This document shows positions 15,112 through 39,108 of a stretch of DNA of 64,000 bases, piece by piece; within the stretch, counting starts at the first letter, position 1; each line of letters starts with the position of its first letter. The DNA is from Maribacter huludaoensis (GTDB lineage Bacteria; Bacteroidota; Bacteroidia; Flavobacteriales; Flavobacteriaceae). The position numbers and the translations under genes were made by a program. Below the pieces are notes generated by a model that was given only the letters and a program-made list of their open reading frames with translations, ran no database searches and had not been told where the DNA came from. The stretch spans positions 1,011,376 through 1,075,375 of the forward strand of contig NZ_JARKMS010000002.1 of NCBI RefSeq assembly GCF_029350945.1, in the 5' to 3' direction.

Positions 15112-15146
15112 ACCATTCACCGACAGTAAATGACCATTCGCCTACA
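15112..15146 (+). promoter_or_regulatory. LytTR-type direct repeat upstream of the signalling operon (box A)
   Basis: ACCATTCACCGACA at 15112 and ACCATTCGCCTACA at 15133 match in 12 of 14 positions and start exactly 21 bp apart, two helical turns, the geometry of LytTR-domain binding sites. They end 55 bp before the ATG at 15202. The same element (core CCATTCGTCTACAGTAA) occurs upstream of the polysaccharide genes at 26081, 27600 and 39046. Binding by the LytTR protein encoded in this operon is inference. Confidence 0.6.
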
Positions 15147-15201
15147 CAAGTCAAATTATATCGAGTGATTGTAAGACTTTTGACACTCAAATATTTATGC
15201 A

Positions 15202-15603
15202 ATGGATATATTATTAATAGAAGACGATTTAATTGAAGTAATGAAGTTGAAACGAACAGTTTCTAAACTTGAGCTAAAACATTCAATTATAGAAGCAAAG
15301 AACGGTGAAGAGGCATTGGACTTTTTAAGATCAGGTGAGAAATTACCGGATATTATTCTGTTAGACTTGAACATGCCTAGAATGAACGGTATAGAATTTT
15401 TAGAAATATTAAAGGCAGATGATGTACTTCAATATTTACCTACTGTTATTTTAACGACCTCTGAGAATAGGGCAGATTTGTTGAAATGTTACCAGGCCGG
15501 TATTGCAGGTTATGTAATTAAACCTTTGAAATATGAAGATTATGAGTATAAGTTAAATGCAGTTTTACAGTATTGGAGCATTAACCAACTAGTAAAAGGC
15601 TAA
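15202..15603 (+). CDS. Single-domain response regulator (CheY-like)
   Basis: A 133-residue receiver with no output domain. Acidic pocket E7-D8-D9 region, phosphoacceptor D55 in ILLDLNMP, T/S switch residue in ILTTSE and the late lysine in VIKPLK are all present, so it should be phosphorylatable. It is the first gene after LytTR-type box A and precedes the H-NOX gene by 80 bases. In a pathway with kinases lacking a receiver and a separate Hpt protein downstream, it could serve as the intermediate receiver of a four-step phosphorelay. It could equally act by protein contact. Confidence 0.9.
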   Translation: MDILLIEDDLIEVMKLKRTVSKLELKHSIIEAKNGEEALDFLRSGEKLPDIILLDLNMPRMNGIEFLEILKADDVLQYLPTVILTTSENRADLLKCYQAGIAGYVIKPLKYEDYEYKLNAVLQYWSINQLVKG

Positions 15604-15653
15604 CAAAAAAGCTCATTTCACAACATTTTTACACAATTACGTATTAATTTTCC

Positions 15654-15661
15654 TACGTTTG
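15654..15661 (+). promoter_or_regulatory. -7 promoter box upstream of the H-NOX gene
   Basis: TACGTTTG matches TAnnTTTG exactly, 22 bases before the ATG at 15684, so the H-NOX/kinase genes probably have their own promoter in addition to read-through from the receiver gene. Confidence 0.55.
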
Positions 15662-15683
15662 AATATATTGTAAAAAAATTCAA

Positions 15684-16226
15684 ATGAAGGGAATTGTATT
15701 TACCGAGTTTTTAGAAATGGTCGAATCGGAATTCGGTTTAGAGACTGTTGATAATATTATTGAAAAAACAGATTTGCCTTCCCAGGGCATATATACATCT
15801 GTTGCCACCTACGAATTCAATGAAATGGTGGCATTGATTACCCAATTGAGTGAAGAGGTAGATTTACCTGCCGGAGATCTAATTTACGCATTCGGACTCT
15901 ATTTGTTTTCTAGTCTTAAAAATGCGCATCCAGAAGTTATTCAAAGTTACCGTACTCCTATCGGTTTGCTTTATTCAATTGAAGACCATATTCATGTGCA
16001 TGTAAAAAAACTATATCCAGAAGCAGAATTGCCTACATTTAAGATTCTTGAGAAAACTGATACTTCCATTTCCATGATCTATAGTTCTTCAAGAGGGCTA
16101 TATAGATTGGCACATGGTTTAATAGAAAAATCTTTTGAACACTTTAATGGCAAGGCCGATATTACTTACGAACTTCTTAAGGAAGATGGTACTGAAGTAA
16201 AATTTGACGTTGTACAACATGGATAG
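15684..16226 (+). CDS. H-NOX haem-based gas sensor (HNOB domain)
   Basis: A 180-residue stand-alone H-NOX protein, normal length for the family. The proximal haem ligand is H102 in DHIHVHVKKLYP and the porphyrin-propionate clamp is the YxSxR motif Y133-S135-R137. The residue five after that arginine, where O2-binding H-NOX proteins have a distal tyrosine, is L142, so NO rather than O2 is the expected ligand (family knowledge). The next gene, a histidine kinase, overlaps its stop by eight bases, the usual H-NOX/kinase pairing in which NO-bound sensor alters kinase activity in the cytoplasm. Confidence 0.95.
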   Translation: MKGIVFTEFLEMVESEFGLETVDNIIEKTDLPSQGIYTSVATYEFNEMVALITQLSEEVDLPAGDLIYAFGLYLFSSLKNAHPEVIQSYRTPIGLLYSIEDHIHVHVKKLYPEAELPTFKILEKTDTSISMIYSSSRGLYRLAHGLIEKSFEHFNGKADITYELLKEDGTEVKFDVVQHG

Positions 16227-18195
16227 TAAAGAGGTTACACTTCTTAAAAAAGCCTTGGAAAGGCAAAAAATGGCCCGTAAACAAGCCGAAAGGATATTAG
16301 AAGAAAAATCTAATGAGCTTTACGAGGTTGCACGCCATTTAAGGGAGTCCAACAACAAACTTGAAAATCTTTTAAGCGAAAAAACATCTGAACTAGATGG
16401 CGTTTTCATCAATATTATAGATCCTTATGTGGTCATGGACCTATCCTATAATGTGGTAAGCATGAACCAATCTGCCAAAGATTTTTTGGGTTATGATCAT
16501 AAGGAACAAGATATCAATCTTTGGAAATTGGTACATAAAGATTTCATGGAGTACACCATAGAATCTTTCAGTAGTTTAAAAGAGGTTGGTATGCTTAAAA
16601 ACTACCGGGCCAAAATCCTTGTTAAAGATGATGTTGAAAAATGGGTAGAAATTAATGCTAGTTTAATATTCAATAAAGAAAAACAACCAATAGCGGCCCA
16701 GGGTATAGTACGTGATATTACCCAAGAGATGGAGGTAACGGAAATATTATCTGAACAAAAGCGGCAATTGGATATTATCGTAAATGCATCACCGCTAGGT
16801 ATCGTATTGGCCAACACGGATAAAATTTTAAAAGTAAACCACGCAATGACCAATTTGCTAGGCTATAGTTCTCAAGAGTTCCAAAATATGAGTATAGCGG
16901 ATATTACCGCCTCTGATGATGAAGAGAAGAGCAAATTGTTAATGCAACAAATGTATGATGGTGAAATTGATGATTTTACAATATCAAAAAAATATATACA
17001 TAAGAGCGGAGAAATCTTATATCTAAAAATATCTTTAAATGCCGTTAAGAACATACGTAACGAAACACGCTTTGTTTTAGGTATGTTAGAGGATATTACC
17101 AAACAGCATGAAGCTGAAACTAAATTAAAAGCGGAAAGGGAGAAGTATAGTAATATCATCGCCAATATGAACTTAGGCCTGTTAGAATTAGATGAAAAAG
17201 ACACGATCCTTTTAGCTAATCAAAGTTTTTGTGATATGAGCGGTTTTTCCGAGAATGAGCTTATAGGAAAAAATGCTACAGATTTCTTTCATGTAGAAAA
17301 CAAGAATGTATTAACGTCAAAGTTAAAATTAGAATCCGGTGGTGAGTCTAATTCTTTTGAGGTTGAAATACTGAACAAGTTAGGTGAGAAAAAGCATTGG
17401 TTAATAAGTGGTGCACCAAGATATAATGAAGCTGGCGATGTAGTAGGTTCGGTAGGTGTTCATTTAGATGTAACAAAGCAAAAAGAATTAGAATTACAGA
17501 AAGAACAGCTGGTTAAAGATTTAGAGAACAGTAACCAAGGTTTACAAGAGTACGCACATATTGTATCTCATGACCTTAAATCGCCACTTAGAAGTATTAG
17601 TGCTTTGGCCACTTGGTTAAGCGATGATTATAAAGATGTTTTAGATGAAGGAGGTAAACAGAATCTTGCCCTTATGCAAGAAAAGGTGGCTTCCATGGAT
17701 AAATTGATACATGGTATTCTTGAATATTCTACCGCCAATAGTTCTGCCTTAGATGATTCTAAAGTAGACCTTAATGAAGTTATTACAGATATTGGCGAAA
17801 CTATTTTTATACCTGAACATGTAAAATTGGTAATACCAAAAGAGCTGCCCACCATCATGGCAGATAGAATTAAGGTACACCAGGTTTTTCAAAATATTAT
17901 AGGTAATGCCGTTGTACATATAGAAAGGGAAGTAGGTCTTGTAGAGGTCCTGTATAAGGATGATGGCGATTTTTGGCAGTTTACGATCAGTGACAATGGC
18001 GTAGGTATACCAGAAGAGTACCATAAAAAGATTTTTGATATTTTTCAATCTATCGGTAATAATGAAAGATCTACAGGTATTGGTCTTTCAATAGTAAAGA
18101 AGATTATTGATCGTTACCAGGGTAGAGTTTGGGTAGATAGCATTGTAGGCGAAGGTACCCAGTTTCATTTCACTATAAAAAAAGACCATAACTAA
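16219..18195 (+). CDS. PAS-domain histidine kinase, H-NOX partner
   Basis: A 658-residue soluble kinase with no membrane segment. An N-terminal coiled coil (about 1-55), three PAS domains (about 60-175, 185-300, 310-430), a HisKA domain with phosphoacceptor H451 in IVSHDLKSPLRS, and a C-terminal ATPase domain (N-box near FQNIIGNAVVHI, G1 box DNGVGIP, G2 STGIGLSIV). No receiver is attached. The ATG at 16219 overlaps the H-NOX stop as ATGGATAG and is preferred over an upstream TTG. Overlap with the H-NOX gene argues for a sensor-kinase complex; its phosphate could go to the receiver at 15202 or to the regulators at 20398-21426. Confidence 0.92.
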   Translation: MDSKEVTLLKKALERQKMARKQAERILEEKSNELYEVARHLRESNNKLENLLSEKTSELDGVFINIIDPYVVMDLSYNVVSMNQSAKDFLGYDHKEQDINLWKLVHKDFMEYTIESFSSLKEVGMLKNYRAKILVKDDVEKWVEINASLIFNKEKQPIAAQGIVRDITQEMEVTEILSEQKRQLDIIVNASPLGIVLANTDKILKVNHAMTNLLGYSSQEFQNMSIADITASDDEEKSKLLMQQMYDGEIDDFTISKKYIHKSGEILYLKISLNAVKNIRNETRFVLGMLEDITKQHEAETKLKAEREKYSNIIANMNLGLLELDEKDTILLANQSFCDMSGFSENELIGKNATDFFHVENKNVLTSKLKLESGGESNSFEVEILNKLGEKKHWLISGAPRYNEAGDVVGSVGVHLDVTKQKELELQKEQLVKDLENSNQGLQEYAHIVSHDLKSPLRSISALATWLSDDYKDVLDEGGKQNLALMQEKVASMDKLIHGILEYSTANSSALDDSKVDLNEVITDIGETIFIPEHVKLVIPKELPTIMADRIKVHQVFQNIIGNAVVHIEREVGLVEVLYKDDGDFWQFTISDNGVGIPEEYHKKIFDIFQSIGNNERSTGIGLSIVKKIIDRYQGRVWVDSIVGEGTQFHFTIKKDHN

Positions 18196-18206
18196 TACAA
18201 ATAAAT

Positions 18207-19337
18207 ATGAAAATCGTACAAGCAATTAAGAAACCAAATGCCCCTTTTGTACTGCAAGGTTCCATGCATTTAAATGAACCCTTGGTACTGGTTTTTGGCA
18301 ATAGATATATGCTTGATAGTGATTTGATCTATGATGAGGTTAGGGCGTTGTTTCCTAATGGCCATATTGTTTTTGGCACAACTTCAGGAGAGATTATTGA
18401 TGATAAAGTTTTGGAAGGCACCGTTGTTTTGACCGCTATAGAATTTGAGAAAAGTTCAGTTTTGGTAAAACGGAGCAATGTACATAATTTTCAAAATGAT
18501 GATCAAAAATTGGGAGAAAGTTTAATAGCTGAATTTCCCAAAGAGAATTTAAAACATTTATTCGTAATATCTGAAGGTAGTACCGTAAACGGCAGTGCTC
18601 TAATAGTAGGGCTAGAGAATTTAAAAGACACTACCTTCGGACTGTCCGGCGGACTCTGTGGAGATGATGATCGGTTTGAAAAAACATTGGCTTCGTATAA
18701 TGAAAAGCCAAAGGAAGGGGAGATTATTGCTATTGGTTTCTACGGTGATACCCTAGAGATAACAAGTTCTAATTTTGGCGGATGGACCACTTTTGGTCCT
18801 GAACGTATTATAACCAAATCTAAAGGTAATTTGCTTTATGAACTAGATGGTAAACCTGCTTTAGATTTGTACAAAACGTATTTAGGCGAAAAAGCAGATG
18901 AATTGCCAAAGTCTGCATTGCTTTACCCGCTTAGCGTAAAAGCGACAGAAGATTCAGATCCATTGGTTAGAACAATACTCAATATAGATGAAAAGGAAAA
19001 TACCATGTTACTTGCGGGCGATGTTCCGGAAGGGGCAAGGGTACAGTTAATGATGTCTTCCGTAGATGATATAGCTAACGGTGCCTCACAAGCGGCAGAG
19101 TTGGCTATGGAAGGTAGAAAGAAGTCTCCTGAGTTGGCATTGTTGATCAGTTGTATAGGTAGAAAGTTGGTCATGGATCAGCGTACCGAGGAAGAAATTG
19201 AGGAGGTAAAGGCAGTAATTGGCAATAATACCGTTATAAGCGGGTTTTACTCTTATGGTGAAATGGCTCCGTTCAGTGGTCAGGATAGTTGTAAATTGCA
19301 TAACCAGACTATGACACTAACCTTATTTAGCGAATAA
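18207..19337 (+). CDS. FIST-domain sensor, NosP-like
   Basis: A 376-residue protein made of FIST_N (about 25-220, with VFGTTSGEI and GLSGGLCGDD) and FIST_C (about 225-365). FIST proteins are cytoplasmic small-molecule sensors; a subgroup, NosP, binds haem and nitric oxide and regulates a co-encoded kinase. This gene ends in TAATG, sharing its last base with the start of the next kinase, the typical NosP-NahK arrangement. I cannot identify the haem ligand in the sequence, so the NO-sensing role rests on family and context. It is the second candidate NO sensor of the operon. Confidence 0.85.
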   Translation: MKIVQAIKKPNAPFVLQGSMHLNEPLVLVFGNRYMLDSDLIYDEVRALFPNGHIVFGTTSGEIIDDKVLEGTVVLTAIEFEKSSVLVKRSNVHNFQNDDQKLGESLIAEFPKENLKHLFVISEGSTVNGSALIVGLENLKDTTFGLSGGLCGDDDRFEKTLASYNEKPKEGEIIAIGFYGDTLEITSSNFGGWTTFGPERIITKSKGNLLYELDGKPALDLYKTYLGEKADELPKSALLYPLSVKATEDSDPLVRTILNIDEKENTMLLAGDVPEGARVQLMMSSVDDIANGASQAAELAMEGRKKSPELALLISCIGRKLVMDQRTEEEIEEVKAVIGNNTVISGFYSYGEMAPFSGQDSCKLHNQTMTLTLFSE

Positions 19338-20401
19338 TGCATTCTCTTTTAAAAAGACAAATAAGAAAATATTTACCTGCGGATATAGAATCTAATCCAG
19401 AGATGGCACAATTCTTAGAGGCAATAGAAAAATCGTACGAGAATTACGATGATAAATTCTCTATGCTGCATAGAGCTTCTACAATTAGTTCAGATGAGCT
19501 TTTTGAGGCGAATAAGAAATTACAGAACGAAGCAAAACAACAAAAAAAGATTCTTGTTTCATTAGAGAATGCCATTCGTAGCTTAACGGATAATCTTAAT
19601 GAAGATCAATTGTTCGGTCAGAATATAGAGGATGAATTCAATGCAGAGCACTTGGCCATTAACATTAGTAATTTGGCGTCTCAGGTTTCAGATATGTCCG
19701 TAGAGAAGGACAAATTGCTTAAAAGTTTGGAAATTCAGAACCAATCTTTAAATAATTATGCGCAGATGGTTTCGCATGATTTAAAATCGCCCATAAGAAA
19801 CATCAATGCTTTGATGAACTGGATTATGGAAGATGAGAAAGATAAGTTTTCTGAGACCAGCAAAGAAAATTGCGAATTGGTGTCGCAGAACCTAACAAAA
19901 ATGGACAAACTCATTACAGGTATTCTAAACCATGCCACAATGGGTGAGACAGAAGAACATAAATCTTCCTTCAATTTAGAGGACAGTTTAAGGGATATTG
20001 AAAGAACAATTTTTGTACCTGAGAACATTACCTTTAAGTATCCTAAAGAATTGCCACACATGGTGTTTGAGAGGTCTAGACTAGAGCAATTATTTATGAA
20101 TTTGTTGACAAATGCGGTTACGGCAACGGAACATGTAGAAAACGGAATTATAGAAATTGGGTACGAACCAGATGAGGTGTATTGGAAATTCAGTGTTTCC
20201 GATAATGGAAAAGGAATACCGGCCAAGCACCAAGAAGGTATATTTCAAATGTTCAAAAAATTGGAAACAGCCAATAACGCCACAGGTATAGGTCTTGCAA
20301 TTGTTAAAAAAATTGCGGTACTTTATGAAGGTGATGTGCGGTTGAAGTCTGAAGAAAATGTAGGTACTACATTTTTTATAACTTTAAAAAAGAATAAATG
20401 A
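19337..20401 (+). CDS. Histidine kinase, FIST partner (NahK-like)
   Basis: A 354-residue soluble kinase. The N-terminal 80 residues (LLKRQIRKYLPA, then a stretch ending in ISSDELFEANKKLQ) are the helical region commonly seen in kinases encoded after FIST genes. HisKA has H147 in MVSHDLKSPIRN, followed by an intact ATPase domain (SDNGKGIP, ATGIGLAIV). No PAS or receiver domain is present, so sensing must come from the FIST protein, with which it is translationally coupled by TAATG. Its stop overlaps the Hpt gene by four bases (ATGA), indicating stoichiometric expression with its phosphotransfer partner. Confidence 0.92.
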   Translation: MHSLLKRQIRKYLPADIESNPEMAQFLEAIEKSYENYDDKFSMLHRASTISSDELFEANKKLQNEAKQQKKILVSLENAIRSLTDNLNEDQLFGQNIEDEFNAEHLAINISNLASQVSDMSVEKDKLLKSLEIQNQSLNNYAQMVSHDLKSPIRNINALMNWIMEDEKDKFSETSKENCELVSQNLTKMDKLITGILNHATMGETEEHKSSFNLEDSLRDIERTIFVPENITFKYPKELPHMVFERSRLEQLFMNLLTNAVTATEHVENGIIEIGYEPDEVYWKFSVSDNGKGIPAKHQEGIFQMFKKLETANNATGIGLAIVKKIAVLYEGDVRLKSEENVGTTFFITLKKNK

Positions 20402-20718
20402 TAGAACAACCGAACCTTAGTTATATAGATGAGCTTGCTGGTGATGATGAGGGCTTTAGAGGTCAATTCATAGATGTTGTCAAAAGTGAATTTCCTTTAG
20501 AAAAAGACGAATATTTTGGTCATATAGACAATAGCAGGTTTAAAGAAACTGCCGAGATTGTTCATAAACTAAAACATAAATTTAATATTTTAGGCATGCA
20601 TGACTCTTATAAATTGGCAGTTACCTATGAAATGGAATTATTGGAAGGTAAATATGAGAGTAAAACCAAATTCGATAATGTTCTAGCCACTATTGAAGAA
20701 TACATAAAAACGATTTAA
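20398..20718 (+). CDS. Stand-alone Hpt phosphotransfer protein
   Basis: A 106-residue helical protein with the Hpt signature VHKLKHKFNILG; H56 is the likely phosphoacceptor, and the usual Gly after HxLK is His. Hpt proteins accept phosphate from one receiver and hand it to another. It overlaps the upstream kinase by ATGA and abuts the LytTR regulator with no gap, so kinase, Hpt and regulator are made together. Because neither kinase has a receiver domain, the donor to this Hpt is likely the free receiver at 15202. Confidence 0.88.
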   Translation: MIEQPNLSYIDELAGDDEGFRGQFIDVVKSEFPLEKDEYFGHIDNSRFKETAEIVHKLKHKFNILGMHDSYKLAVTYEMELLEGKYESKTKFDNVLATIEEYIKTI

Positions 20719-21426
20719 ATGAACTGTATTATAATTGATGATGAGGCTACGGCAAGAGCAATCGTAAAGCAGCTATGTACCAAAGTTGAAGAGCTAGATG
20801 TCATTGAAGAATTCGATAATGCTATTTCCGCCATTAAATTTTTAAATCAAAATAGTATAGATGTCATTTTTTTAGATGTTCATATGCCAGGCTTTAGCGG
20901 TGTAGATTTTGTACAGACCCTTAAAGATCCCCCTAAAGTGGTTATGACTACATCAGATACAGATTTTGCAATTGCGGCTTACGAATATGAGTGTATTGTA
21001 GATTATCTGGTAAAACCCATAACTCTGGAACGTTTTCAAAAGTGTTTGCTCAAAATAAAAAATAGCTCTGCTAAAAGACCACAAATACCAACAGCTAACC
21101 AAGAAAACGCACAAGAAGAAGATTTATATATCAATATTGATAGAAGATTGATCAAACTGAAACTTAATGACATTTTGGTCATTGAGGCCAAGGGTGATTA
21201 TATAGAGATAAAAACGGAAAAAGAGGAGCATAGGGTGCATACTACACTTAAGAAAATTAAGGAGAAATTACCTGAGAAATTATTTCTACAAATACACCGG
21301 TCTTACATCATCAATTTCACTAAAATTATTGATATAGAAGATAATAGTGTACTAATTGCCAAAAATGTAGTTCCCATAAGCCGATCTAACCGTCCAGAAT
21401 TAATGCGAAGATTAAATTTACTCTAA
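20719..21426 (+). CDS. LytTR-family response regulator
   Basis: A 235-residue regulator: receiver (1-120; D53 in IFLDVHMP, lysine in YLVKPI) and C-terminal LytTR DNA-binding domain (about 135-235, including FLQIHRSYIINF). LytTR domains bind paired direct repeats about 21 bp apart. Such repeats are found upstream of this operon (15112) and of 39151, with single strong copies at 26081 and 27600 before polysaccharide genes. It is the output protein of the operon, and I infer that it activates those promoters. Confidence 0.93.
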   Translation: MNCIIIDDEATARAIVKQLCTKVEELDVIEEFDNAISAIKFLNQNSIDVIFLDVHMPGFSGVDFVQTLKDPPKVVMTTSDTDFAIAAYEYECIVDYLVKPITLERFQKCLLKIKNSSAKRPQIPTANQENAQEEDLYINIDRRLIKLKLNDILVIEAKGDYIEIKTEKEEHRVHTTLKKIKEKLPEKLFLQIHRSYIINFTKIIDIEDNSVLIAKNVVPISRSNRPELMRRLNLL

Positions 21427-21445: not shown

Positions 21446-21859
21446 CTACCAATTTTCGTGATATATTTTTTTAAAGATTTCTGCCAGTTCTACTTTGTTT
21501 ACAGGTTTTACAACGTAACCGGTAAGTTCTTCAAAGTTAGACGCTCTTTTAATATCACTATCACGCATAGATGAGCTCACCATATAGATATTAATATTGT
21601 TCATTATTTTGGGTTTTAATTTTTTAAACTCATTTAAAAATCCCCACCCGTCTAAAAACGGCATATTAATATCTAAAAATATCACCTCTGGTAATTCAAC
21701 TTTTTCTTCTGTACATTTAGCAATATACTCAACGGCCATTTCGCCATCGGTAAATGTGCTAATAATAAGCTCATTTGATAATTGCTTAATAGTTTTAGTC
21801 ATTAAATAGAGATAAAGTTCATCATCATCTATCAATAAAATGTTGGGTTTAGTGTGCAT
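21446..21859 (-). CDS. Single-domain response regulator
   Basis: A 137-residue CheY/Rcp1-type receiver without output domain; DDD at 11-13, phosphoacceptor D63 in FLDINMP, switch Ser in YMVSSS and lysine in YVVKPV. It starts one base after the stop of the membrane kinase gene, so the two form a dedicated pair on the minus strand. Its target cannot be read from the sequence. Confidence 0.9.
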   Translation of the reverse strand: MHTKPNILLIDDDELYLYLMTKTIKQLSNELIISTFTDGEMAVEYIAKCTEEKVELPEVIFLDINMPFLDGWGFLNEFKKLKPKIMNNINIYMVSSSMRDSDIKRASNFEELTGYVVKPVNKVELAEIFKKIYHENW

Positions 21860-23909: not shown

Positions 23910-25970
23910 TTAGTCTAGATCTAACTTTTTGTAGAATAAAGGTTTTTTCAAAAACAACCATTTTGCTTTTAATCCTATTTCGGTAAATTCAAACCCCGCT
24001 GCGGTGGCTGAGGCAATATTACTATACTTACCATAAACGTTTAAACTAAATCTTTTTGAGAATTGATGTTGTACAGAAGCTTCGGCTCTAAAGATGTTGG
24101 TATTAGGATCATCTTCTACTTTTTGAATACCCGTAGCTGCACTGGCCATATATGTGGTTTTTTCGGAAATTTTACCGCGAACATCGGCAAATAGTTCAAC
24201 TGCTTGGTACTTCTCAGGACTAAAATATATAGTTGGTACTTGGTCCTTAAACGTAATGTACTGATAATTGACACCCATTTTCAAAGCAGGTTTTTTAAGC
24301 ACGTTATAATAAAGAGACGTGAACAGTAAATTTCTTACATTTTCATCACTCTGCCGAGTATGCATCAGTTGCGTATACCAGCCAAAATTTACATTGGTTC
24401 CCAAGTTATAATTTAAGCCATAGTGGTTCTGTACAATCTCTCGTTCAATCAATTCTGCGTTAAAGCTTTGTACTTCCCTCTGGTACCCCAATGTTAAGTT
24501 CTGAAGCTTAAATGGTTGTAAATCCAATTTAATATCAAGCACCGGCTGAGTATATGCCTCATCCAAAAATCTAGAATTGTTGAATCCTAAAACCGTTTTA
24601 AGAACCGTTTTTGGAAATAACTTGTATTGTAGCCCTACTAAAGCTACATGAGAAGTTGCCTTATTATCCGTAACCGTATTTTCCGTAGATCTAAAGAAAT
24701 AGGAGAAAGTAGTCCTAAACTTTGTTGAAAAAGGTATGTCTACCGTGGTATTGGTATAAAAGGCCGTATTGTTACCATTATCAAAAGTATAAGCGGCATG
24801 TTCTTCGATCGTTGGTGTGTGCATTAAGTTCAACTTCTCAATAAAACCTTTGGCATCTTTTTGATTATCGTAGAATTTTAAGGTCTGATTTGCCATATGA
24901 TATGCCGGTATTATTTTATCAGATGCAAATAAGGCATTGGCTTTTCCCAGATTTCCATCAAAAGATGCACTATCGTTAACTAAGATTCTATCATAACTTA
25001 CAACACTTGCTTTTGAGTCGCCAGTGTACAGACCTAAGGTAGCTCTTAGGGCATGTATCCAATTTCTATTTGGGTAATGAACTTCTAAACTATCTATTTT
25101 TTTACGGGCAGGTATGAATTTTTTGTTCCAGATCAAAGCTTGCACATAACGATCATAGGTATTTTCAGTAAGTGGTACGTCATCTATCTTATCTACTTTT
25201 ACCGTTGCGTTCTTAGCAATAATCAAGGCTTCTTTATCATTTTCATCTAAATGCTCTGCCAACGCTATACCGTTTAAAGCGGTAATGGAATCTTTAGGGG
25301 TAGTAGCATACCTGACATACATATTCTTAGCCTTGTCCGCTTGCTTTGTAATTAAATAAAGGTTGGCAAGATTAATGAGTACATCTTTGTCTTCAGGAAA
25401 ATCTTCAAATATTTTTTTTAGGGTTTCTTCTCCTTTACTGTATTGTTGATTATTTACAAAGGCATTGGCATAGCCAAGTCTCATAAATTTTCTAGAGACC
25501 TTTGCACTTTCATTTTCTGGCTGTAATTCTATAGCTTTTTCAACCCAGCTTAAGGCAGATTCATATTCTTTTAAGTTACTTAAGGTATTGGCGTAACCGA
25601 GTACGGCCCCAAATTTCTTGGGAAATTTATCAACTAGATCCGCATATAGGGGTTTAGCTTGTTCATATTCTTTGGCCCATAAAAAAGATTCGTTATAGTT
25701 GATCAAAATCTCAAAATCGCCAGGGTAATCTTTTAAAAGGTCGGAGAAAAGACCCGTTGCTTTTTGGGGCTCTCCGCTTAACCCTACTGCCCGGCCATAA
25801 CAGAGCAATGCTGTTTTGTTGTCCGGGTCTGTCTTAAGGTATTCACCAAAAAAAAGTTCAGCTTTTTGAAAGTCACCTTTCTCCAATAAACCAAAACCTT
25901 CGGTCATATCAGATTGGGCTTTTAACAGTGAAGAAGTTAAAAGAATAAGGAAAACTATTTTTTTAATCAT
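23910..25970 (-). CDS. TPR / outer-membrane beta-barrel protein, YaiO/PgaA-like
   Basis: A 686-residue exported protein: signal peptide (about 1-19, ending LLKAQ), tetratricopeptide repeats over about 20-380 (for example AELFFGEYLKTDPDNKTALL and later copies), then a C-terminal part of about 300 residues of alternating beta-strands ending in an aromatic strand, as in YaiO-type outer-membrane barrels. The layout resembles the polysaccharide export porins PgaA, AlgK/AlgE and BcsC. It is divergent from the first flippase gene over a 224-bp region containing a LytTR-type box, so it may be co-regulated and form the exit pore for the polymer. Export function is inference. Confidence 0.8.
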   Translation of the reverse strand: MIKKIVFLILLTSSLLKAQSDMTEGFGLLEKGDFQKAELFFGEYLKTDPDNKTALLCYGRAVGLSGEPQKATGLFSDLLKDYPGDFEILINYNESFLWAKEYEQAKPLYADLVDKFPKKFGAVLGYANTLSNLKEYESALSWVEKAIELQPENESAKVSRKFMRLGYANAFVNNQQYSKGEETLKKIFEDFPEDKDVLINLANLYLITKQADKAKNMYVRYATTPKDSITALNGIALAEHLDENDKEALIIAKNATVKVDKIDDVPLTENTYDRYVQALIWNKKFIPARKKIDSLEVHYPNRNWIHALRATLGLYTGDSKASVVSYDRILVNDSASFDGNLGKANALFASDKIIPAYHMANQTLKFYDNQKDAKGFIEKLNLMHTPTIEEHAAYTFDNGNNTAFYTNTTVDIPFSTKFRTTFSYFFRSTENTVTDNKATSHVALVGLQYKLFPKTVLKTVLGFNNSRFLDEAYTQPVLDIKLDLQPFKLQNLTLGYQREVQSFNAELIEREIVQNHYGLNYNLGTNVNFGWYTQLMHTRQSDENVRNLLFTSLYYNVLKKPALKMGVNYQYITFKDQVPTIYFSPEKYQAVELFADVRGKISEKTTYMASAATGIQKVEDDPNTNIFRAEASVQHQFSKRFSLNVYGKYSNIASATAAGFEFTEIGLKAKWLFLKKPLFYKKLDLD

Positions 25971-26056: not shown

Positions 26057-26110
26057 TACCGTTTTGGAAGTAGGATAATTACCGTTCGTCTATAGCTAAC
26101 GGTTATCTAC
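26057..26110 (+). promoter_or_regulatory. LytTR-type box B in the divergent tpr/flippase region
   Basis: The core ACCGTTCGTCTATA at 26081-26094 matches the shared element ACCATTCGTCTACA in 12 of 14 positions. Weaker TACCGTT copies lie at 26057 and, inverted, at 26097 and 25998. A -7-like GATATTTG at 26144-26151 lies about 50 bp downstream, the same distance as in the 27600 and 39046 copies. The box could serve the flippase gene (26195) or the leftward TPR gene (25970). Confidence 0.5.
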
Positions 26111-26194
26111 CTTATGCACTTAAAAAATGATAGTAGCCTTTATGATATTTGAACTCTAACCAAGTCTATGTTAGGACTTTAAAAAAACATAACC

Positions 26195-27442
26195 ATGATG
26201 GCAATTAAACTGGTACTGAATAAAGTTTCCCCTGAAAAGGTATTTATGGTAAGCGTACTGGTAGTAAACGGAGGAAATTATCTTTACAACCTTATATTGG
26301 GTAGATTACTTGGACCAGAAGCCTATAGTGAAGCCGCTTTATTGATCACATTGGTATTGGTACTCTCCTTTTTAGGTATGACCTTTCAATTGGTTACCGC
26401 AAAGTTTGTTATTTTATTTTCTAATGATGATCGGGTGGCACTTAAGCATCTACTATATAAATATGCTCTAATTTTTGGATTATTAATAGGCATAATACTT
26501 TTTGCGTTTTCAAAAAATTTGCAGGAAATATTCCATACTGAATCTGACTTACTGTTCAAAACCTTTGCTGTTTCCGTTCCCTTATATTTTTTAATGTCCG
26601 TTAATAGAGGAAGGTATCAAGGCAAACAGGAATATCAAAAATTATCCATGACATATCAAGCAGAAATGTGGAGTAGATTGTTCATCACCTTGGGCTTGTT
26701 AGTGCTGTTACCTTTCAATTCAGCTTTTATTGTAGCTTTAGGTATTGGTCTATCATTTGTATTCGGCTTAATTCCTACCACTTTAGATATAGAGAGTTTT
26801 ACCAAAGAAGTAACTTTGTCCAAAGAGAATAAACGTAAGGTAATCAGTTTTGTAGCACTGACCACTTGCTATGAGCTTACCCAAATAATTATTAATAATA
26901 GTGACATTCTTTTGGTGAAACACTATTTTGATAATGTTACTGCCGGTCTCTATTCTTCTCTGGCTATGATAGGGCGTGTGGTTTATTTTATAGCTTGGAT
27001 GTTTGTCATGCTTTTATTGCCTGCCGTGGTACAAAAGCAGAAAGATGGCGAGGCTACAGCACCATTATTAATGAAATACGTTGGTTATGTAGGTGTCTTA
27101 TCTGTAACGATTATCATATGTTGTGCTGTTTTTCCTGAGTTGATTGTGCAATTAATGTTCGGGGAAGCATATCTCTCCATGGCGCCATTGTTATGGCAAT
27201 ATGCCTTGGCTACATCGCTGTTCGCTATATCAAATATATTTGCCTATTACTTTTTATCTCTTGATCAATACCTACCGGTCATTCTATCTGGTATTTTGGG
27301 TATCTCGCAAATAATTATGATCATGTTTTTTCATAGCTCATTATACATTGTGGTACAGGTACAGATTATAGCCATGGTTTCTTTATTGGTTGCCCAGCTA
27401 CTTTATTTTACGCATAATACCATTCTTAACAAGATAGTTTGA
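26195..27442 (+). CDS. Polysaccharide flippase (Wzx/MATE-like), copy 1
   Basis: A 415-residue integral membrane protein with about 12 predicted helices, in the oligosaccharide flippase/MurJ-Wzx superfamily. The N-terminal region NGGNYLYNLILGRLLGPEAY is typical of these transporters, which flip lipid-linked glycans or move polymers across the inner membrane. A close paralogue, with the same GGNYLYN, SVNRGR and NNSDILLVKHYF blocks, is encoded at 30383. It ends just before a strong terminator, so it is transcribed alone. Confidence 0.88.
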   Translation: MMAIKLVLNKVSPEKVFMVSVLVVNGGNYLYNLILGRLLGPEAYSEAALLITLVLVLSFLGMTFQLVTAKFVILFSNDDRVALKHLLYKYALIFGLLIGIILFAFSKNLQEIFHTESDLLFKTFAVSVPLYFLMSVNRGRYQGKQEYQKLSMTYQAEMWSRLFITLGLLVLLPFNSAFIVALGIGLSFVFGLIPTTLDIESFTKEVTLSKENKRKVISFVALTTCYELTQIIINNSDILLVKHYFDNVTAGLYSSLAMIGRVVYFIAWMFVMLLLPAVVQKQKDGEATAPLLMKYVGYVGVLSVTIIICCAVFPELIVQLMFGEAYLSMAPLLWQYALATSLFAISNIFAYYFLSLDQYLPVILSGILGISQIIMIMFFHSSLYIVVQVQIIAMVSLLVAQLLYFTHNTILNKIV

Positions 27443-27496: not shown

Positions 27497-27599
27497 GCAT
27501 GTCCAAAATTATTATAAAAACTGGCATATTTAAGCAGTGCTATATGGAGGATAGATATTAATAAGGGAAGACTGCATAAGGTTTAACCAAGCATTTCTT

Positions 27600-27616
27600 C
27601 CATTCGTCTACAGTAA
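27600..27616 (+). promoter_or_regulatory. LytTR-type box C upstream of the first GT4 gene
   Basis: CCATTCGTCTACAGTAA, identical over 17 bp to the copy at 39047-39063. It lies 91 bp before the ATG at 27708 and about 45 bp before a -7-like GATATTTG (27662-27669). No clear second half-site is seen 21 bp upstream. Confidence 0.55.
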
Positions 27617-27707
27617 CTCTTGATCCACCTAATATGGCCCTAAATTTCTTTCTCTTAGTTGGATATTTGTAACAACAATAACCCAGTTGAACTATAAACT
27701 TAACCTT

Positions 27708-28937
27708 ATGAAACTTGCCATTGTAACCGCTTATCCGCCAAGTAAAGTAACATTGACCGAATACGGTTATCATTTGGTAAAACATTTTAGACTTCAAAAA
27801 GATATAACAGAAATTATTTTAATAACCGATAGAACTGATGGTCCAAAAGATTTAAACTTTGAGGGCGAAGGTTGTAAGATTACGGTAAAAGAATGTTGGA
27901 ATTTTAATGATTACACCAACTTCTTTAAAATTAATAGAGCCATAGCGTCGGCAAAGCCCGATGCCGTATTATACAATTTGCAATTTTTAAAGTTCGGGCA
28001 CAAAAAGATACCTGCGGCACTTGGCTTAATGTTACCCTTTATATCAAAATTAAAAGGTATACCTACCATTTCTTTGTTGCACAATATATTGGAACAAGTA
28101 GATTTAGAAAATGCCGGTATTACCTCTAACACATTTTTAAAGAAGATTTATAATTTTGCCGGTAACGTGCTTACAAGATTTGTATTGGCTTCAGATATTG
28201 TAGCGGTAACTATAAGTAAATATCAAACTATTTTAGAAGATAAATATCAGTCAAGAAATGTAGCCTTAATTCCGCACGGATCTTTTGAAACTCCACCAGA
28301 GCCAAACTATAAATTACCATCTGGACCAAAAAAAGTAATGGCTTTTGGCAAATTCGGTACCTATAAAAAGGTAGAGATTATGATAGAAGCAGTAGAGTTG
28401 ATCAGAAAACGTAGCAACCAAGATATTGAAATTGTAATTGCAGGTACCGATAGCCCTAATACACCAGGTTATTTAGACGGTATAAAGAAGAAGTATGCAC
28501 ATGTAGAACAGCTACGTTTTACAGGTTATGTAGCAGAAGAAGATGTGCCGGTCATTTTTAATGAAAGTGCCGTAGTGGTTTTTCCGTATACTTCTACTAC
28601 AGGTAGTTCCGGTGTATTGCATCAGGCAGGTAGTTACGGTAAGGCAGTAGCATTACCTAACTTGGGGGACTTAAGTATATTGGTAAAAGAAGAAGGTTAT
28701 AAGGGTGAATTCTTTAAGCCTGAAAACGCAGCCTCATTGGCAGATGCCATTGAGCATATATTAGCACATGACTCTTACAGAAAGTATTTGTCTAAGGCAA
28801 ATTATAGGGCGGCTTGTTCATTACCTATGTCAACTATTACTGGAATGTACATTGAATATTTTAAAACATTACAATTGGCAAAATCTAAAGGATTTACGTT
28901 AGACGTTTCTTTGGTAGAAAAAGAATTAATGGCATGA
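27708..28937 (+). CDS. GT4-type glycosyltransferase, copy 1
   Basis: A 409-residue retaining glycosyltransferase of GT-B fold. The N-terminal AIVTAYPPSKVTLTEYG is the acceptor-side start, GTYKKVEIMIEAVELI and the FPYTSTTGSSGVLHQAG segment form the donor nucleotide-sugar site of family 4. No membrane helix is predicted. The ATG at 27708 is used, because it aligns with the paralogue at 31708; an upstream TTG would add seven residues. The two GT4 proteins are very similar throughout, so they arose by duplication. It is followed by a hairpin terminator at 28959. Confidence 0.9.
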   Translation: MKLAIVTAYPPSKVTLTEYGYHLVKHFRLQKDITEIILITDRTDGPKDLNFEGEGCKITVKECWNFNDYTNFFKINRAIASAKPDAVLYNLQFLKFGHKKIPAALGLMLPFISKLKGIPTISLLHNILEQVDLENAGITSNTFLKKIYNFAGNVLTRFVLASDIVAVTISKYQTILEDKYQSRNVALIPHGSFETPPEPNYKLPSGPKKVMAFGKFGTYKKVEIMIEAVELIRKRSNQDIEIVIAGTDSPNTPGYLDGIKKKYAHVEQLRFTGYVAEEDVPVIFNESAVVVFPYTSTTGSSGVLHQAGSYGKAVALPNLGDLSILVKEEGYKGEFFKPENAASLADAIEHILAHDSYRKYLSKANYRAACSLPMSTITGMYIEYFKTLQLAKSKGFTLDVSLVEKELMA

Positions 28938-29207: not shown

Positions 29208-30347
29208 ATGAAAATACTAACTATAGATGATCAACAGCTTATTTTATTATCTGTTGAAAAACAACTTACCGAACTAGGTTATGATGTAATGACCGCTGAT
29301 TCTGGTACAAAAGGCATAGACTTATATGATTCCTTTAAACCGGATTTGGTGCTTGTTGATATCAATATGCCGGACATGTCCGGTCTAGAAGTTGTTAAAT
29401 ATATAAAAGCAGGCAGTAGAAAGGATACTCCTGTTTTAGTAATGTCCGGTAACACACAGGAGAATATAATTATGGATGGCTTTACGCTAGGGATCGATGA
29501 TTATATGAAGAAACCTGTGAGTTTGTCAGAAATGAGTGCTCGTATTAAAAGACTAATTGGCGCACCGGTAATAGAAATTAATACTGACGCTGCCGGTACG
29601 GGTAGAATGCTGCAAAAGAATTGCGTGGGCGTTGTCATACCTTGTTATAATGAAGAAGAACGCCTTTTAGGTAAAGAATTTAGGGATTTTGCGCACAGTA
29701 ACCTCGGTTATCATCTTTGTTTTGTAAACGATGGTAGTACAGATAAAACTTTAGAAGTTTTAGAAGAGCTGAGAAAAGGTAACGAAAGTAATATTAGTAT
29801 TTACGATTGTGAAAAAAATGGCGGTAAGGCAGAAGCGGTACGCTTAGGTATGTTACATATGGCCAAAGACCCTCAATTAGATTATATAGGCTTTTTGGAT
29901 GCCGATCTTTCCACGGATTTTAGAGATTTTGATGACTTGGTAGAAACACTTGATAAATCTGATTTTAAAATTGTAAGCGGTTCTAGAATGAGTAGAATGG
30001 GTGCGGATATTACCAAAGAGTCTGCCCGTAAGATCATAAGTATGACAATTAACCTCATCATACGTACCATTTTAAGAATGCCGTTTAACGATACACAATG
30101 CGGAGCCAAGGTCATGGACCGTTCTGTGGTACCGCTAATGTTTTCTAAACCATTTATTACCAAGTGGCTGTTCGATGTTGAAATGTTTATACGAATGAGA
30201 AAATACTTTGGTAAGAAAGAAGCTGTCAAACTTATTTGTGAGCAGCCTTTAAAGCGATGGATACACGCAGACGGATCTAAACTGTCAATGAAAGACTCTG
30301 TGAAAATCGTTGGCCAACTTGCCAAAATTGCAGTTGTTTATCGATAA
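29208..30347 (+). CDS. Receiver-GT2 fusion, polyprenyl-phosphate glycosyltransferase-like, copy 1
   Basis: A 379-residue fusion of a response-regulator receiver (1-120; DD at 7-8, phosphoacceptor D51 in LVDINMP, lysine in YMKKPV) to a GT2 glycosyltransferase (about 140-379). The GT2 part starts VGVVIPCYNEEERL, has donor/metal motif DADLST and the TQCGAKVM block of dolichyl/polyprenyl-phosphate sugar synthases (Alg5/DPM1/GtrB group), but no C-terminal membrane helices. It should attach a sugar to a lipid carrier, and phosphorylation of D51 may switch it. It heads the operon with flippase 2 and GT4 copy 2. A paralogue lies at 39151. Direct enzyme output from a receiver is unusual. Confidence 0.88.
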   Translation: MKILTIDDQQLILLSVEKQLTELGYDVMTADSGTKGIDLYDSFKPDLVLVDINMPDMSGLEVVKYIKAGSRKDTPVLVMSGNTQENIIMDGFTLGIDDYMKKPVSLSEMSARIKRLIGAPVIEINTDAAGTGRMLQKNCVGVVIPCYNEEERLLGKEFRDFAHSNLGYHLCFVNDGSTDKTLEVLEELRKGNESNISIYDCEKNGGKAEAVRLGMLHMAKDPQLDYIGFLDADLSTDFRDFDDLVETLDKSDFKIVSGSRMSRMGADITKESARKIISMTINLIIRTILRMPFNDTQCGAKVMDRSVVPLMFSKPFITKWLFDVEMFIRMRKYFGKKEAVKLICEQPLKRWIHADGSKLSMKDSVKIVGQLAKIAVVYR

Positions 30348-35773: not shown

Positions 35774-38700
35774 CTATTTTGGATTACCTATATAACTATT
35801 AATCTCAAATTTTAAATAGTCATAGCCTTTTCCTTTAAAAGGTTGGGTCTGCTGTTTGCCATGAATCAGTTTTCTGTCGGGAAAAATTTTATCCGCAATG
35901 GCTTTATTGGGCAACCCGTTTACAAAACAATTTTCTAAACTGCTACTTATAATCTCTAAACTATCTAATGCCAAAGGTTTGTAATTAAAGAATTGTTTGC
36001 GTTGAATGCGTACACCTTCCGTAATAAATTTATGATCTACCCACAATAGTTCACTATTTTCATCATAATAAGAAATGATCAATTGCGGTATGGTAACTTC
36101 TTGTACGCCAGAATTGAACAAAACGCCTTCAAAACCTTGATCGGTATATTTAAGATTTTGTAATGCCACGTGTTTATATAAATCTGTATTTGCGGTATTT
36201 CCGGCAGATTGTAAATTGAACTTGGTAGGTCGTTCTTCAAAACTGACAGGTGTAAACTGGTCCGGGTCAAAAGTAGGAGGCAAAGTATCTTTAGTGGACG
36301 ACCACGCTATACCTTCAAAATTTATTTTAAAGGTCGTAGTTTCCTTGGGCATTAGCTTATGTTTAATTTGATGTTTGGCATTGTAATTTGCCAGCTCTTT
36401 GTCATCGTCATTGTACAAAGTAGCCTTTATGACCACATCTGCAGGTGTATTGTCTACATTCTGTAGCTCTCCTATAACACTGTACTGCCCTTTATATTTA
36501 ACCAATTTTGCAGATAAAATTTCTAGTACCGGCTGTTTTAGAACATCTTCATGGTAGGTTTCTTGAGTAGTTATTTTTCGTCTACCATGGTTGTAATAGG
36601 TTGTGCCGTTGGCAGTAAATAACTGGTCTGGCGGAATATCGTTGTCTACCTTCTTAGATTTAATGTACCATTTGTTCTTACGTTTCACCAATTCATGATA
36701 ATCGTTATTAAAAACATTTTCTAAAGGCGTGATCCATCTAGTGGCAACTTTTGCCTTTGCGCTATTTTCGGTCTCATCATATATTTCTATGCCCAAAGAA
36801 TCTAGTTTTGCATAAGAGCTTAATATGCCATCTGTAACGGAAACTTCTAGCATGTACTGCGCTATGTCTATATTGTCTTCTGGATCTAAGTAGGAGTGTG
36901 CAGTGGAGAACTCTTTAAAGTCCAATGCATCATAATACGATTCTACTACGTTGTTTGGAGATAATTGAGCAACGTTCTTTACGTAGAAAATATACATGCC
37001 ATACCCTATGCAAATAAGCACTACCAATGCCCACCAATGGGAAAAGGTCAATAATTTGGAAGGAAACTTGTTGTAAGGCAACTCTAATTTCATAAAAGAG
37101 TGTACCGGCGTTTTTCTAGATTTTAAAAGTCTTACCCATATCATTTGAATATTTACGAATATGGCTATTAGCACGGTGGTCAATGGTATAACGCCCCACA
37201 TGATCTTCATGATAGTGGGTACGTCTTGCTTGGGCATTATCTGTGGTATTGGGGCAACATTTAGTTTTTCCCATACCATAATTCCGTTTTCTAGTTGCTG
37301 TAAACGTTGCCAACCACAATAGTAGAGTATGGGGTCATAAAATTTATCGTTAGAGAAAATATACTTTAAGTTGTATTTTTCAGGTACGGTCAAAAACTGT
37401 TGTAAAGAACCAATTCCTTCTACACCCCTAAATTTAGAATTTTCTATTCTTTCAATGGCCCGGGTAGTCAACTCTGGCAGTCGCCTTGCAGAATGGTAAT
37501 TGCCATCTACCGTCATGGCTCCGCTCTGGGCGGACAGCCATGCCATTTGATCACCGAAACCTAACGGTAGATAGCGCCATGAATCATGTGAATCCGCACC
37601 CAAAAAGTTTACTATGGGCAGCATTTTAATTTTAGCGGGCTGCGAGGGTCTAAAATAGCCTAATGTCATGGTAAACAATACCATAAAAAGCATTCCTCCG
37701 GCAATCAGTCCGCCCAAGACTCTATGGTAGACCCCGCCAAATTTTTCCTGTATCAAGGTTTTTAGGTCACCTTCTACCATCCTGTAGGCAAATTCTGCAA
37801 ATATGGGAAGCGCCATAATGGTGGCCCATAAGGTAAACCTATCCAAAGTTAAAATATTGAATGCCATTTCGCCCAACATGAGACGTGGTATGGGGGTGGT
37901 GCCTCCCGTTCCCAATATGGTCAATAGGGTAAACGATAAGCCGAAAAAAACATACCTTTTACTAAAATATCTGTAAAAGAAATAGGGTAGTATAAAAAGG
38001 AATACGCCCCACGGAATCAGAAAGAACACAAGACCTGATGACGTTATTTCCAGGAAATTGTCTCGTGAGCCATGTGGTATGGCAACTTGTGTAATGGGGT
38101 TTCTTTTAGAGTTATACCAATATGGAAAAATACAGAATACGAGCAAAAATATTGCCGTTCCGCCAAATTTCGCAATTCGCCAAAAATGCTGTAATGTGGT
38201 ACCCCAGAAAACTTTAAAGGTAAGCGCTTTATACGATGCTACTTTTTCCCTGGCGGCATCCATAACCGCCATGCCCATTAAAGGTGCAATGAAGAATACC
38301 ATACCGAACAGGGGCGTAACATGATGTGAGGTTACCGTAACCGCAAGCATGGTTGCCGATGTAATAAAATAACGCGTTTTACCTGTTTTGATCCACAAGT
38401 ATATTTCTGTCATTGCGTGTAATAAGATGGACAATGCAGATACGCTTGGCAGTTGCCCAAAAATATGTAAGGTCTCTACGAACGTTGATGAGAATACGGC
38501 CATTACGGCACCATAGCCTGCTATTCTTCGGCTTCCGGTCATTAAAAGGGTATACCTATATGCACCGGTTATAAAAAGTACTATGGCTATTAGGGCAACG
38601 GTATACATGCCAAATTTTAAGCCGCCAATATATGAGAGAATGCCTATGAGCTGATGTACCAATGGCGGATAGGATTGTACGGTAAAACCCGTATACCATC

Positions 38701-38863
38701 TATACTCCCAGGGGTCAAACCAGCTACTGGCATAATGGTCGGCAAAGAATAAATGAATTAAGGCATCATAAGTAGATTCTAACGTAAAGAAAATAGCTGA
38801 ACCATGAAAAGCCAGACCTACTATTAATGCCAGTATTAAAAGAGTGTTGGTTTTTTTTTTCAA
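35774..38863 (-). CDS. Giant membrane protein, GT-C-like (PTPS-related membrane domain) with large C-terminal exterior part
   Basis: A 1029-residue protein. The first about 420 residues hold roughly 11-12 membrane helices with an early acidic loop STYDALIHLFFADHYAS, as in the 6-pyruvoyl-tetrahydropterin-synthase-related membrane domain and GT-C glycosyltransferases (which use polyprenyl-phosphate sugars). Further helices lie near 555-575 and 612-632. The last 400 residues are extracytoplasmic, with an NTF2-like stretch (VVESYYDALDFKEFSTAHSY) and beta-sandwich segments. First gene of the operon with the lipoprotein and hydrolase, divergent from the second receiver-GT2 gene. It could be the polymerase or transferase using the lipid-linked sugar made by that GT2. 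Function is inferred. Confidence 0.7.
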   Translation of the reverse strand: MKKKTNTLLILALIVGLAFHGSAIFFTLESTYDALIHLFFADHYASSWFDPWEYRWYTGFTVQSYPPLVHQLIGILSYIGGLKFGMYTVALIAIVLFITGAYRYTLLMTGSRRIAGYGAVMAVFSSTFVETLHIFGQLPSVSALSILLHAMTEIYLWIKTGKTRYFITSATMLAVTVTSHHVTPLFGMVFFIAPLMGMAVMDAAREKVASYKALTFKVFWGTTLQHFWRIAKFGGTAIFLLVFCIFPYWYNSKRNPITQVAIPHGSRDNFLEITSSGLVFFLIPWGVFLFILPYFFYRYFSKRYVFFGLSFTLLTILGTGGTTPIPRLMLGEMAFNILTLDRFTLWATIMALPIFAEFAYRMVEGDLKTLIQEKFGGVYHRVLGGLIAGGMLFMVLFTMTLGYFRPSQPAKIKMLPIVNFLGADSHDSWRYLPLGFGDQMAWLSAQSGAMTVDGNYHSARRLPELTTRAIERIENSKFRGVEGIGSLQQFLTVPEKYNLKYIFSNDKFYDPILYYCGWQRLQQLENGIMVWEKLNVAPIPQIMPKQDVPTIMKIMWGVIPLTTVLIAIFVNIQMIWVRLLKSRKTPVHSFMKLELPYNKFPSKLLTFSHWWALVVLICIGYGMYIFYVKNVAQLSPNNVVESYYDALDFKEFSTAHSYLDPEDNIDIAQYMLEVSVTDGILSSYAKLDSLGIEIYDETENSAKAKVATRWITPLENVFNNDYHELVKRKNKWYIKSKKVDNDIPPDQLFTANGTTYYNHGRRKITTQETYHEDVLKQPVLEILSAKLVKYKGQYSVIGELQNVDNTPADVVIKATLYNDDDKELANYNAKHQIKHKLMPKETTTFKINFEGIAWSSTKDTLPPTFDPDQFTPVSFEERPTKFNLQSAGNTANTDLYKHVALQNLKYTDQGFEGVLFNSGVQEVTIPQLIISYYDENSELLWVDHKFITEGVRIQRKQFFNYKPLALDSLEIISSSLENCFVNGLPNKAIADKIFPDRKLIHGKQQTQPFKGKGYDYLKFEINSYIGNPK

Positions 38864-39000: not shown

Positions 39001-39065
39001 GTCTGTTGTTAAAAAAGCATAATTTATAGTGGTCTATTGTAATAAACCATTCGTCTACAGTAAAC
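39001..39065 (+). promoter_or_regulatory. LytTR-type repeats, box D, between the giant membrane protein and receiver-GT2 copy 2
   Basis: Three direct repeats: GTCTGTTGTT at 39001, GTCTATTGTAATAA at 39032 and GTCTACAGTAAAC at 39053. The spacings are 31 and 21 bp, about three and two helical turns. The last copy extends to ACCATTCGTCTACAGTAAAC (39046-39065) and is identical over 17 bp to box C. It ends about 45 bp before the -7 box at 39109. Divergent placement could let it serve both operons. Confidence 0.6.
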
Positions 39066-39108
39066 TGTCAGCCATCTTGTCGGTTTCCTGATTTTAGTAC
39101 TTGGTATG

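Follow-up and report, generated by a model that had tools for sequence, protein, structure and literature searches.

A candidate nitric oxide-responsive split phosphorelay linked to exopolysaccharide genes in Maribacter huludaoensis and other Flavobacteriaceae

In a 64,000-nucleotide stretch of the Maribacter huludaoensis genome (contig NZ_JARKMS010000002.1; hereafter the window), positions 15202-21426 hold one operon of seven genes: a receiver (REC), an H-NOX protein, a PAS kinase (kinase 1), a FIST protein, a second kinase (kinase 2), an Hpt phosphotransfer protein and a LytTR response regulator. Our reading, to which we assign a probability of about 0.6, is that this operon encodes a cytoplasmic split phosphorelay that responds to nitric oxide (NO) and controls exopolysaccharide, and so the matrix, by transcription. 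In the mechanism that we infer, NO would bind the H-NOX haem and H-NOX would then act on kinase 1; where present, FIST, whose binding of haem or NO is putative, would act on kinase 2. The free receiver at 15202 would take phosphate from both kinases and hand it to Hpt (H56), from which it would reach the LytTR regulator (D53). Once phosphorylated, the regulator would bind tandem sites spaced by 21 bp beside the promoter of its own operon and activate it, and would likewise activate flippase, glycosyltransferase and receiver-glycosyltransferase genes of an adjacent locus. The parts of the operon, all on the + strand, are:

15112..15146, +, tandem LytTR-type site in the operon promoter; two ACCATTCRYCKACA repeats with a 21-bp period, TTTG at 15179-15182
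15202..15603, +, single-domain receiver (REC), proposed Asp intermediate; Pfam, conserved D8, D9, D55, T86 and K107
15684..16226, +, predicted H-NOX haem NO sensor; Pfam HNOB 1.6e-38, conserved haem residues
16219..18195, +, kinase 1, a three-PAS histidine kinase and presumed H-NOX partner; Pfam, length stepwise among relatives
18207..19337, +, NosP-like FIST protein of unproven ligand; opens an optional cassette
19337..20401, +, kinase 2; completes the cassette; Pfam, most similar to kinase 1 among the kinases of its genome
20398..20718, +, Hpt phosphotransfer protein; H56 conserved, model with a predicted local distance difference test score (pLDDT) of 94.7, structural matches to Hpt
20719..21426, +, LytTR response regulator, proposed relay output; Pfam, D8, D53, T78 and K99 conserved

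Among 397 Flavobacteriaceae genomes, H-NOX was found in 146 and FIST in 116. In 75 genomes a listed FIST shared the strand of H-NOX and lay at most 10 kb from it, and in 74 of these it was 1.3-2.7 kb downstream. We took 135 H-NOX loci, comprising the 75 H-NOX/FIST pairs and 60 of the 73 H-NOX matches from genomes without such a pair (two of the 13 other matches were added later), and parsed 134 of them, leaving out L189. The seven genes predicted originally from the window alone recurred in the same order in 65 of the 134 loci, and the gaps between all neighboring gene pairs had medians of -4 to +9 bases. A further 46 loci showed the same order minus FIST and kinase 2, and the other 23 lacked at least one gene at that place, partly because of contig ends or the caller of open reading frames (ORFs). 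Thus, FIST and kinase 2 behave as an optional two-gene cassette between kinase 1 and Hpt, and the module is spread family-wide. The dual-sensor circuit of the original prediction therefore stands in that both candidate sensors, two kinases, Hpt and LytTR share one conserved operon, but the second sensor and its kinase are not obligatory members.

Distances from H-NOX to FIST mostly stepped by ~380 bases, consistent with variation in how many PAS domains kinase 1 has; the length of this kinase itself steps by ~130 amino acids (about 400, 530, 660 and 790) among relatives, whether FIST is present or not (L063-L197). On a core-protein tree of 119 loci, in which gain and loss of the cassette are not distinguishable, 20 changes in the presence of FIST were counted, compared to 37.6 with shuffled labels; well-supported branches force at least 9 of the 20. 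Outside the family the arrangement is rare: a phylum-wide draw of 296 genomes yielded H-NOX in 11 such genomes, with the full seven-gene operon at one of the 11 loci (L208). In the best 80 named FIST loci, H-NOX stood near FIST in 53 of 64 Flavobacteriia by the parser, plus one by tblastn, and in 1 of 16 others. Searching the loci of Lutibacter oricola, Flavobacterium hydatis and Flavobacterium sp. LC2016-13 with tblastn revealed no H-NOX; FIST and kinase 2 are kept there, and just 184-295 bases separate REC from kinase 1. Where FIST stands apart from H-NOX (20 stretches), a kinase follows it in 18, with low profile scores (71-180 bits), and the other two are clusters of several FIST genes; no Hpt was found in any of the 20, and in one (L230) a LytTR-type gene lies on the opposite strand, two genes away.

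In Tenacibaculum skagerrakense (L340), FIST and kinase 2 lie just upstream of, and separate from, an operon of REC, H-NOX, kinase 1, a kinase 2-like gene, Hpt and LytTR. Locus L217 has a diverged kinase 2 inside the operon and lacks FIST, and L152, with a stop in H-NOX and a FIST fragment of 140 amino acids, is possibly an operon in decay.

The acceptor residues of a His-Asp-His-Asp relay sit on separate proteins of the operon and are nearly invariant: in REC, D8, D55 and K107 are conserved in 100% of 130 loci, T86 in 99% and D9 in 98%; H56 of Hpt is present in 100% of 119 loci; and D8, D53, T78 and K99 of the LytTR regulator in 100% of 121. Pfam recognized a receiver domain, with its acceptor Asp, and a LytTR domain in the regulator, and the Hpt protein was modeled as a helical bundle that carries the conserved His and matches solved Hpt domains. 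Because of this conservation and the Hpt match, we read the set as a two-kinase phosphorelay of the split His-Asp-His-Asp type. In a Pfam scan neither kinase showed a receiver domain of its own, so the relay would need the free REC; the circuit first proposed was incomplete in this respect, since the 15202 receiver is kept almost without exception and likely supplies the Asp step.

A proximal haem histidine and a YxSxR motif are the signature of H-NOX proteins. The protein at 15684 has both and scored 132.6 bits against the Pfam HNOB model (PF07700; cut-off 25.5); across the 134 loci, H104, Y133 and S135 are conserved in 100% and R137 in 97%. It is 52% identical to the Kordia algicida H-NOX of solved structure (PDB 6bdd), and the K. 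algicida OT-1 record (L337) carries the seven-gene operon; the H-NOX of locus L101 is identical to the 6bdd sequence at 179 of 179 residues. From its sequence, the H-NOX of this operon very probably senses NO. The crystallized protein, which also appears in a simulation paper (PMC7356049), is now placed in a genetic setting. The molecule name given to PDB 6bdd and 6bde, an aldolase, is misleading, as the sequence belongs to an H-NOX from operons of this type.

Upstream of the receiver gene in 130 operons, we found a strongly enriched motif, a direct repeat of ACCATTCRYCKACA with a 21-bp period, located 93-132 bases before the start codon (10th-90th percentile), which we take to resemble LytTR/AlgR boxes. 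Allowing up to 7 mismatches of 35, a tandem site was present in 97 of the 130 promoters (53 of 78 operons with FIST and 44 of 52 without), compared to 0 per shuffled set. Similarly, among 53 named operons containing both REC and H-NOX, 40 had a site of at least 20 bits within 300 bases. In the window, the tandem pattern (up to 3 mismatches) occurred once, at the operon site at 15112, with 0 mismatches and 0 expected in shuffles, while half sites, including those at 27600 and 39047, gave 4 matches in all against 0.35 expected. A weight matrix trained without the genus itself, with ten shuffled windows as background, returned four tandem sites, at 15112 (43.6 bits), 39046 (25.1), 27599 (22.6) and 26081 (12.4); the last is not significant on score alone, since the best shuffled-window score was 12.3. 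In all four, TTTG starts 32 bases after the end of the site. TAnnTTTG is the promoter element of Bacteroidetes. These are tandem direct repeats near promoters, as for LytTR regulators, and we predict that the regulator of this operon binds them. Beyond the operon, they precede genes of the adjacent exopolysaccharide locus, an output that the original circuit did not include.

The same geometry recurs in relatives. When 199 genomes were searched with the whole pattern, allowing at most 3 mismatches, it matched at 136 places, spread over 69 genomes; a reversed control matched at 4. In 20 stretches from relatives (300 kb), chosen around extra sites and so not a random sample, 54 sites reached at least 17 bits, compared to none in a single shuffle of 300 kb; TTTG followed at 32 bases in 34 of them and at 53, one repeat further, in 10. 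Identified by N-terminal sequence, with a Pfam check on one locus (L273), the genes that follow were a STAS/flippase head gene (16), a GT4 gene (13) and a receiver-GT2 gene (12); in 3 of the 20 stretches a site preceded a protein of about 870 amino acids with a type IX secretion system tail. One stretch, L288, had no site of at least 17 bits. In another genome (L280), two near-identical sites of 31-33 bits stand at two near-identical ORFs of 99 amino acids with a signal-peptide-like stretch.

The exopolysaccharide locus spans ~23.9-40.3 kb of the window, and the three non-operon sites precede its flippase, GT4 and receiver-GT2 genes:

23910..25970, -, TPR protein with an outer-membrane-barrel-like part, an exporter resembling PgaA/BcsC; Pfam TPR, BCSC_C below cut-off, NCBIfam PgaA 58 bits, below cut-off
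26081..26115, +, low-scoring tandem LytTR-type site ahead of the flippase gene; 12.4 bits, TTTG at 26148
26195..27442, +, Wzx-like polysaccharide flippase; Pfam Polysacc_synt_3 3.6e-17
27599..27633, +, tandem LytTR-type site before the GT4 gene; exact half site, 22.6 bits, TTTG at 27666
27708..28937, +, GT4-type glycosyltransferase (ORF from 27687, ATG at 27708); Pfam Glycos_transf_1 3.1e-18
29208..30347, +, receiver-GT2 glycosyltransferase fusion; Pfam, acceptor Asp and Lys by eye
35774..38863, -, 1029-amino-acid protein, marker of the locus; no Pfam match, in 54 of 199 genomes
39046..39080, +, tandem LytTR-type site ahead of the second receiver-GT2 gene; half site, 25.1 bits, TTTG at 39113
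39151..40317, +, second receiver-GT2 fusion; Pfam, acceptor Asp and Lys by eye

Genomes with the 1029-amino-acid marker carry H-NOX in 49 of 54 cases, compared to 29 of 145 genomes without it (Fisher p 2e-20, in a test that ignores the kinship of the genomes). Marker and H-NOX are linked at 10-31 kb in 40 of these 49, with one relative orientation in 40 of 40; of the other nine, one has them far apart on the same contig and eight on different contigs. The five marker genomes without H-NOX have an orthologous LytTR gene (52-64% identical) beside Hpt and a kinase 1-like gene, which indicates that LytTR goes with the polysaccharide locus and that the sensors vary. We are therefore largely confident, from sites and linkage, in predicting that the LytTR regulator controls the exopolysaccharide locus. 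That all five of these genomes retain kinase 1, Hpt and LytTR, together with the repeated changes of FIST presence on the core tree, also lends itself to another interpretation: LytTR would be mainly an exopolysaccharide regulator with the PAS kinase as its original input (redox, light or other), and H-NOX and FIST would be minor add-ons. We consider this rather improbable, as a minor part would hardly be kept in 49 of 54 exopolysaccharide genomes with its haem residues near-invariant.

The proposed output differs from cyclic di-GMP signaling. GGDEF domains were found in 0 of 30 genomes (30 of the 40 with H-NOX linked to the marker), compared to 8 of 14 control genomes. Pfam detected no GGDEF, EAL or HD-GYP output in the operon; the genome-wide search covered GGDEF, not EAL or HD-GYP. 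NirK scored above cut-off in five of the same 30 genomes, that of the window not among them, suggesting that NO comes mostly from outside or by another route. The NO-sensing systems covered in the cited parts of the literature are from Proteobacteria, several acting via cyclic di-GMP; with H-NOX so common in Flavobacteriaceae and GGDEF found in none of the 30 genomes tested, the NO response had no obvious output here. The phosphorelay would offer one, with a named regulator, a DNA site of fixed promoter geometry and a linked exopolysaccharide locus, and, if true, would tie NO to biofilm without need for cyclic di-GMP. The receiver-GT2 fusions at 29208-30347 and 39151-40317 are possible direct targets of the phosphorelay. 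A fuller scheme, in which two haem sensors of different fold, both for NO or one each for NO and haem, feed one relay free of cyclic di-GMP in parallel or by coincidence detection, and the matrix is controlled both by LytTR transcription and by direct phosphorylation of these fusions (29208, 39151), strikes us as unlikely in its entirety.

Several observations weigh against the mechanism proposed above. For the kinases, positions +7, +11, +12 and +15 from the phospho-His all agree in just 28 of 77 kinase 1/kinase 2 pairs, and the two phosphotransfer regions are 50% alike within a locus versus 51% between loci; the residues that the kinases share may thus merely reflect common descent. That they are no closer within loci than between speaks for two pathways in one operon, kinase 1 ending on the free receiver and just one kinase feeding Hpt and LytTR; so does the Legionella hnox2 operon with a kinase and a CheY-like receiver, in which a free receiver is the endpoint (PMC11237717). 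We nevertheless find such a division doubtful. In 46 loci kinase 2 is absent and the receiver, kinase 1, Hpt and LytTR are kept, which implies that kinase 1 must be able to serve Hpt and LytTR. Positions in the phosphotransfer helix near the phospho-His set partner choice, and these specificity residues are common to both kinases: R at +7 (128 of 131 for kinase 1, 73 of 78 for kinase 2, 0 of 31 for kinases from other loci), L at +12 (127 of 131, 77 of 78 and 11 of 31) and W at +15 (129 of 131, 74 of 78 and 0 of 31). Of the 32 other matches to kinase 2 from the same genome, kinase 1 ranks first, with 41% identity and 197 bits, and the runner-up reaches 88 bits. Moreover, in two genomes (G011 and G172) whose sensor operon lacks LytTR, the orthologous LytTR (387 and 394 bits) lies elsewhere; there it follows an additional receiver (206 and 205 bits) and is headed by a high-scoring tandem site (L279 and L281; 42.6 and 52.2 bits). 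Together, the sequences suggest that both kinases probably share one relay.

FIST is a broad ligand-binding family. The protein at 18207 has both the FIST and FIST_C domains (Pfam), and it scored 55.6 bits against the NCBIfam NosP equivalog, below the cut-off of 450, so the earlier assignment of FIST as an NO sensor is not supported; the six other FIST proteins compared with this model all scored 46-73 bits. H365 is the sole invariant histidine in 16 aligned FIST proteins, and haem ligation by it is only putative. We judge the odds that FIST senses NO or haem to be even. At somewhat worse than even odds, FIST and kinase 2 may instead sense a cue other than NO, such as labile haem or a small ligand, for example an amino acid, and the operon would integrate NO with a second cue. 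The low NosP score and the breadth of the family favor this, as do the 46 of 134 loci with H-NOX and without FIST-kinase 2, and L309, L330 and L336, where tblastn found no H-NOX beside FIST-kinase 2. As loci exist with H-NOX alone or FIST-kinase 2 alone, the two inputs are separable; however, two sensors of one gas would be just as separable, and FIST proteins in other bacteria sense NO via haem (PMC12570481, PMC6769237). Operons with one, the other or both sensors amount to a natural experiment.

The DNA sites and the linked locus supply further counterevidence. At the thresholds used, 33 of the 130 promoters and 13 of the 53 named operons, including most of the Flagellimonas type, have no site. 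TTTG spacing in operon promoters is looser than at the four sites in the window, with 14 of 86 at 32 and 18 at 51-53, though these remain the commonest spacings. Across the genome to which the window belongs, a search with a single pattern (up to 3 mismatches) gave two places, one of them the operon, and the targets named here are those within the window. To these add the kinship of genomes behind the marker test and the absence of the 1029-amino-acid gene from 29 of 78 H-NOX genomes, which shows that the targets of the regulator are not the same everywhere.

By analogy with studied relatives, the ligand-bound sensors most likely inhibit their kinases, so that NO would lower matrix and favor dispersal. 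In Legionella, NO-bound NosP activates its kinase (PMC11237717), and for this reason the sign could be reversed; we give NO turning the system down an even chance.

Between the operon and the exopolysaccharide locus, 21446-23648 on the - strand encodes a receiver and a Cache-type histidine kinase, a pair that, among the loci read, follows the operon in the same genus or Maribacter records only (L079, L085, L109 and L290-L292). Upstream, the genes at 9215-15080 presumably form a hydroxyproline-type amino-acid catabolism cluster; the last of them, which was scanned with Pfam, is a DAO-family oxidase.

In the open-licence literature we found no description of a flavobacterial, a LytTR-ended or a combined H-NOX/FIST operon, in line with the original view that a co-translated H-NOX and FIST circuit ending in LytTR had not been described for this group. 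In Shewanella oneidensis, H-NOX and NosP reportedly both feed one multicomponent network, which is said to differ from the present operon in its cyclic di-GMP output and its spread over several loci. The Bacillus Spo0 system is likewise a split His-Asp-His-Asp relay with a free receiver (Spo0F) and several kinases, but Spo0B is not a classical Hpt, and signals and output are other. Parallels also come from Vibrio, where H-NOX-HqsK-LuxU and NosP-VpsS-LuxU are known from different species (PMC6769237). In Vibrio harveyi, an H-NOX-controlled cytosolic kinase signals through a free Hpt to a regulator that binds DNA, as proposed here; HqsK, however, is a hybrid with its own receiver, LuxU is common to the quorum-sensing kinases, and the pathway ends in LuxO and small RNAs (PMC6769237), whereas in Maribacter one operon has a gene each for the receiver, Hpt and the LytTR regulator. 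Vibrio cholerae NosP is co-cistronic with a kinase without a sensor domain, VpsS, and feeds the free Hpt LuxU and thence LuxO; it differs in its hybrid kinase and its output, and the parts of the paper drawn on name no H-NOX for that operon (PMC6769237). Burkholderia pseudomallei NosP-NosK-NosR and Legionella NosP-NahK-NarR similarly join FIST and a kinase in one operon, the Burkholderia NosP and NosK standing with an HD-GYP regulator and Legionella having three NO receptors; their outputs are of HD-GYP (degenerate) or GGDEF/EAL type and tied to cyclic di-GMP, unlike the LytTR regulator here (PMC12570481, PMC11237717). Thus, the operon is undescribed in the literature searched, but its principle is not new, since H-NOX and NosP pathways of separate Vibrio species already end on one Hpt (PMC6769237): the circuit is a variation on NO-sensing phosphorelays and not a new kind of system.

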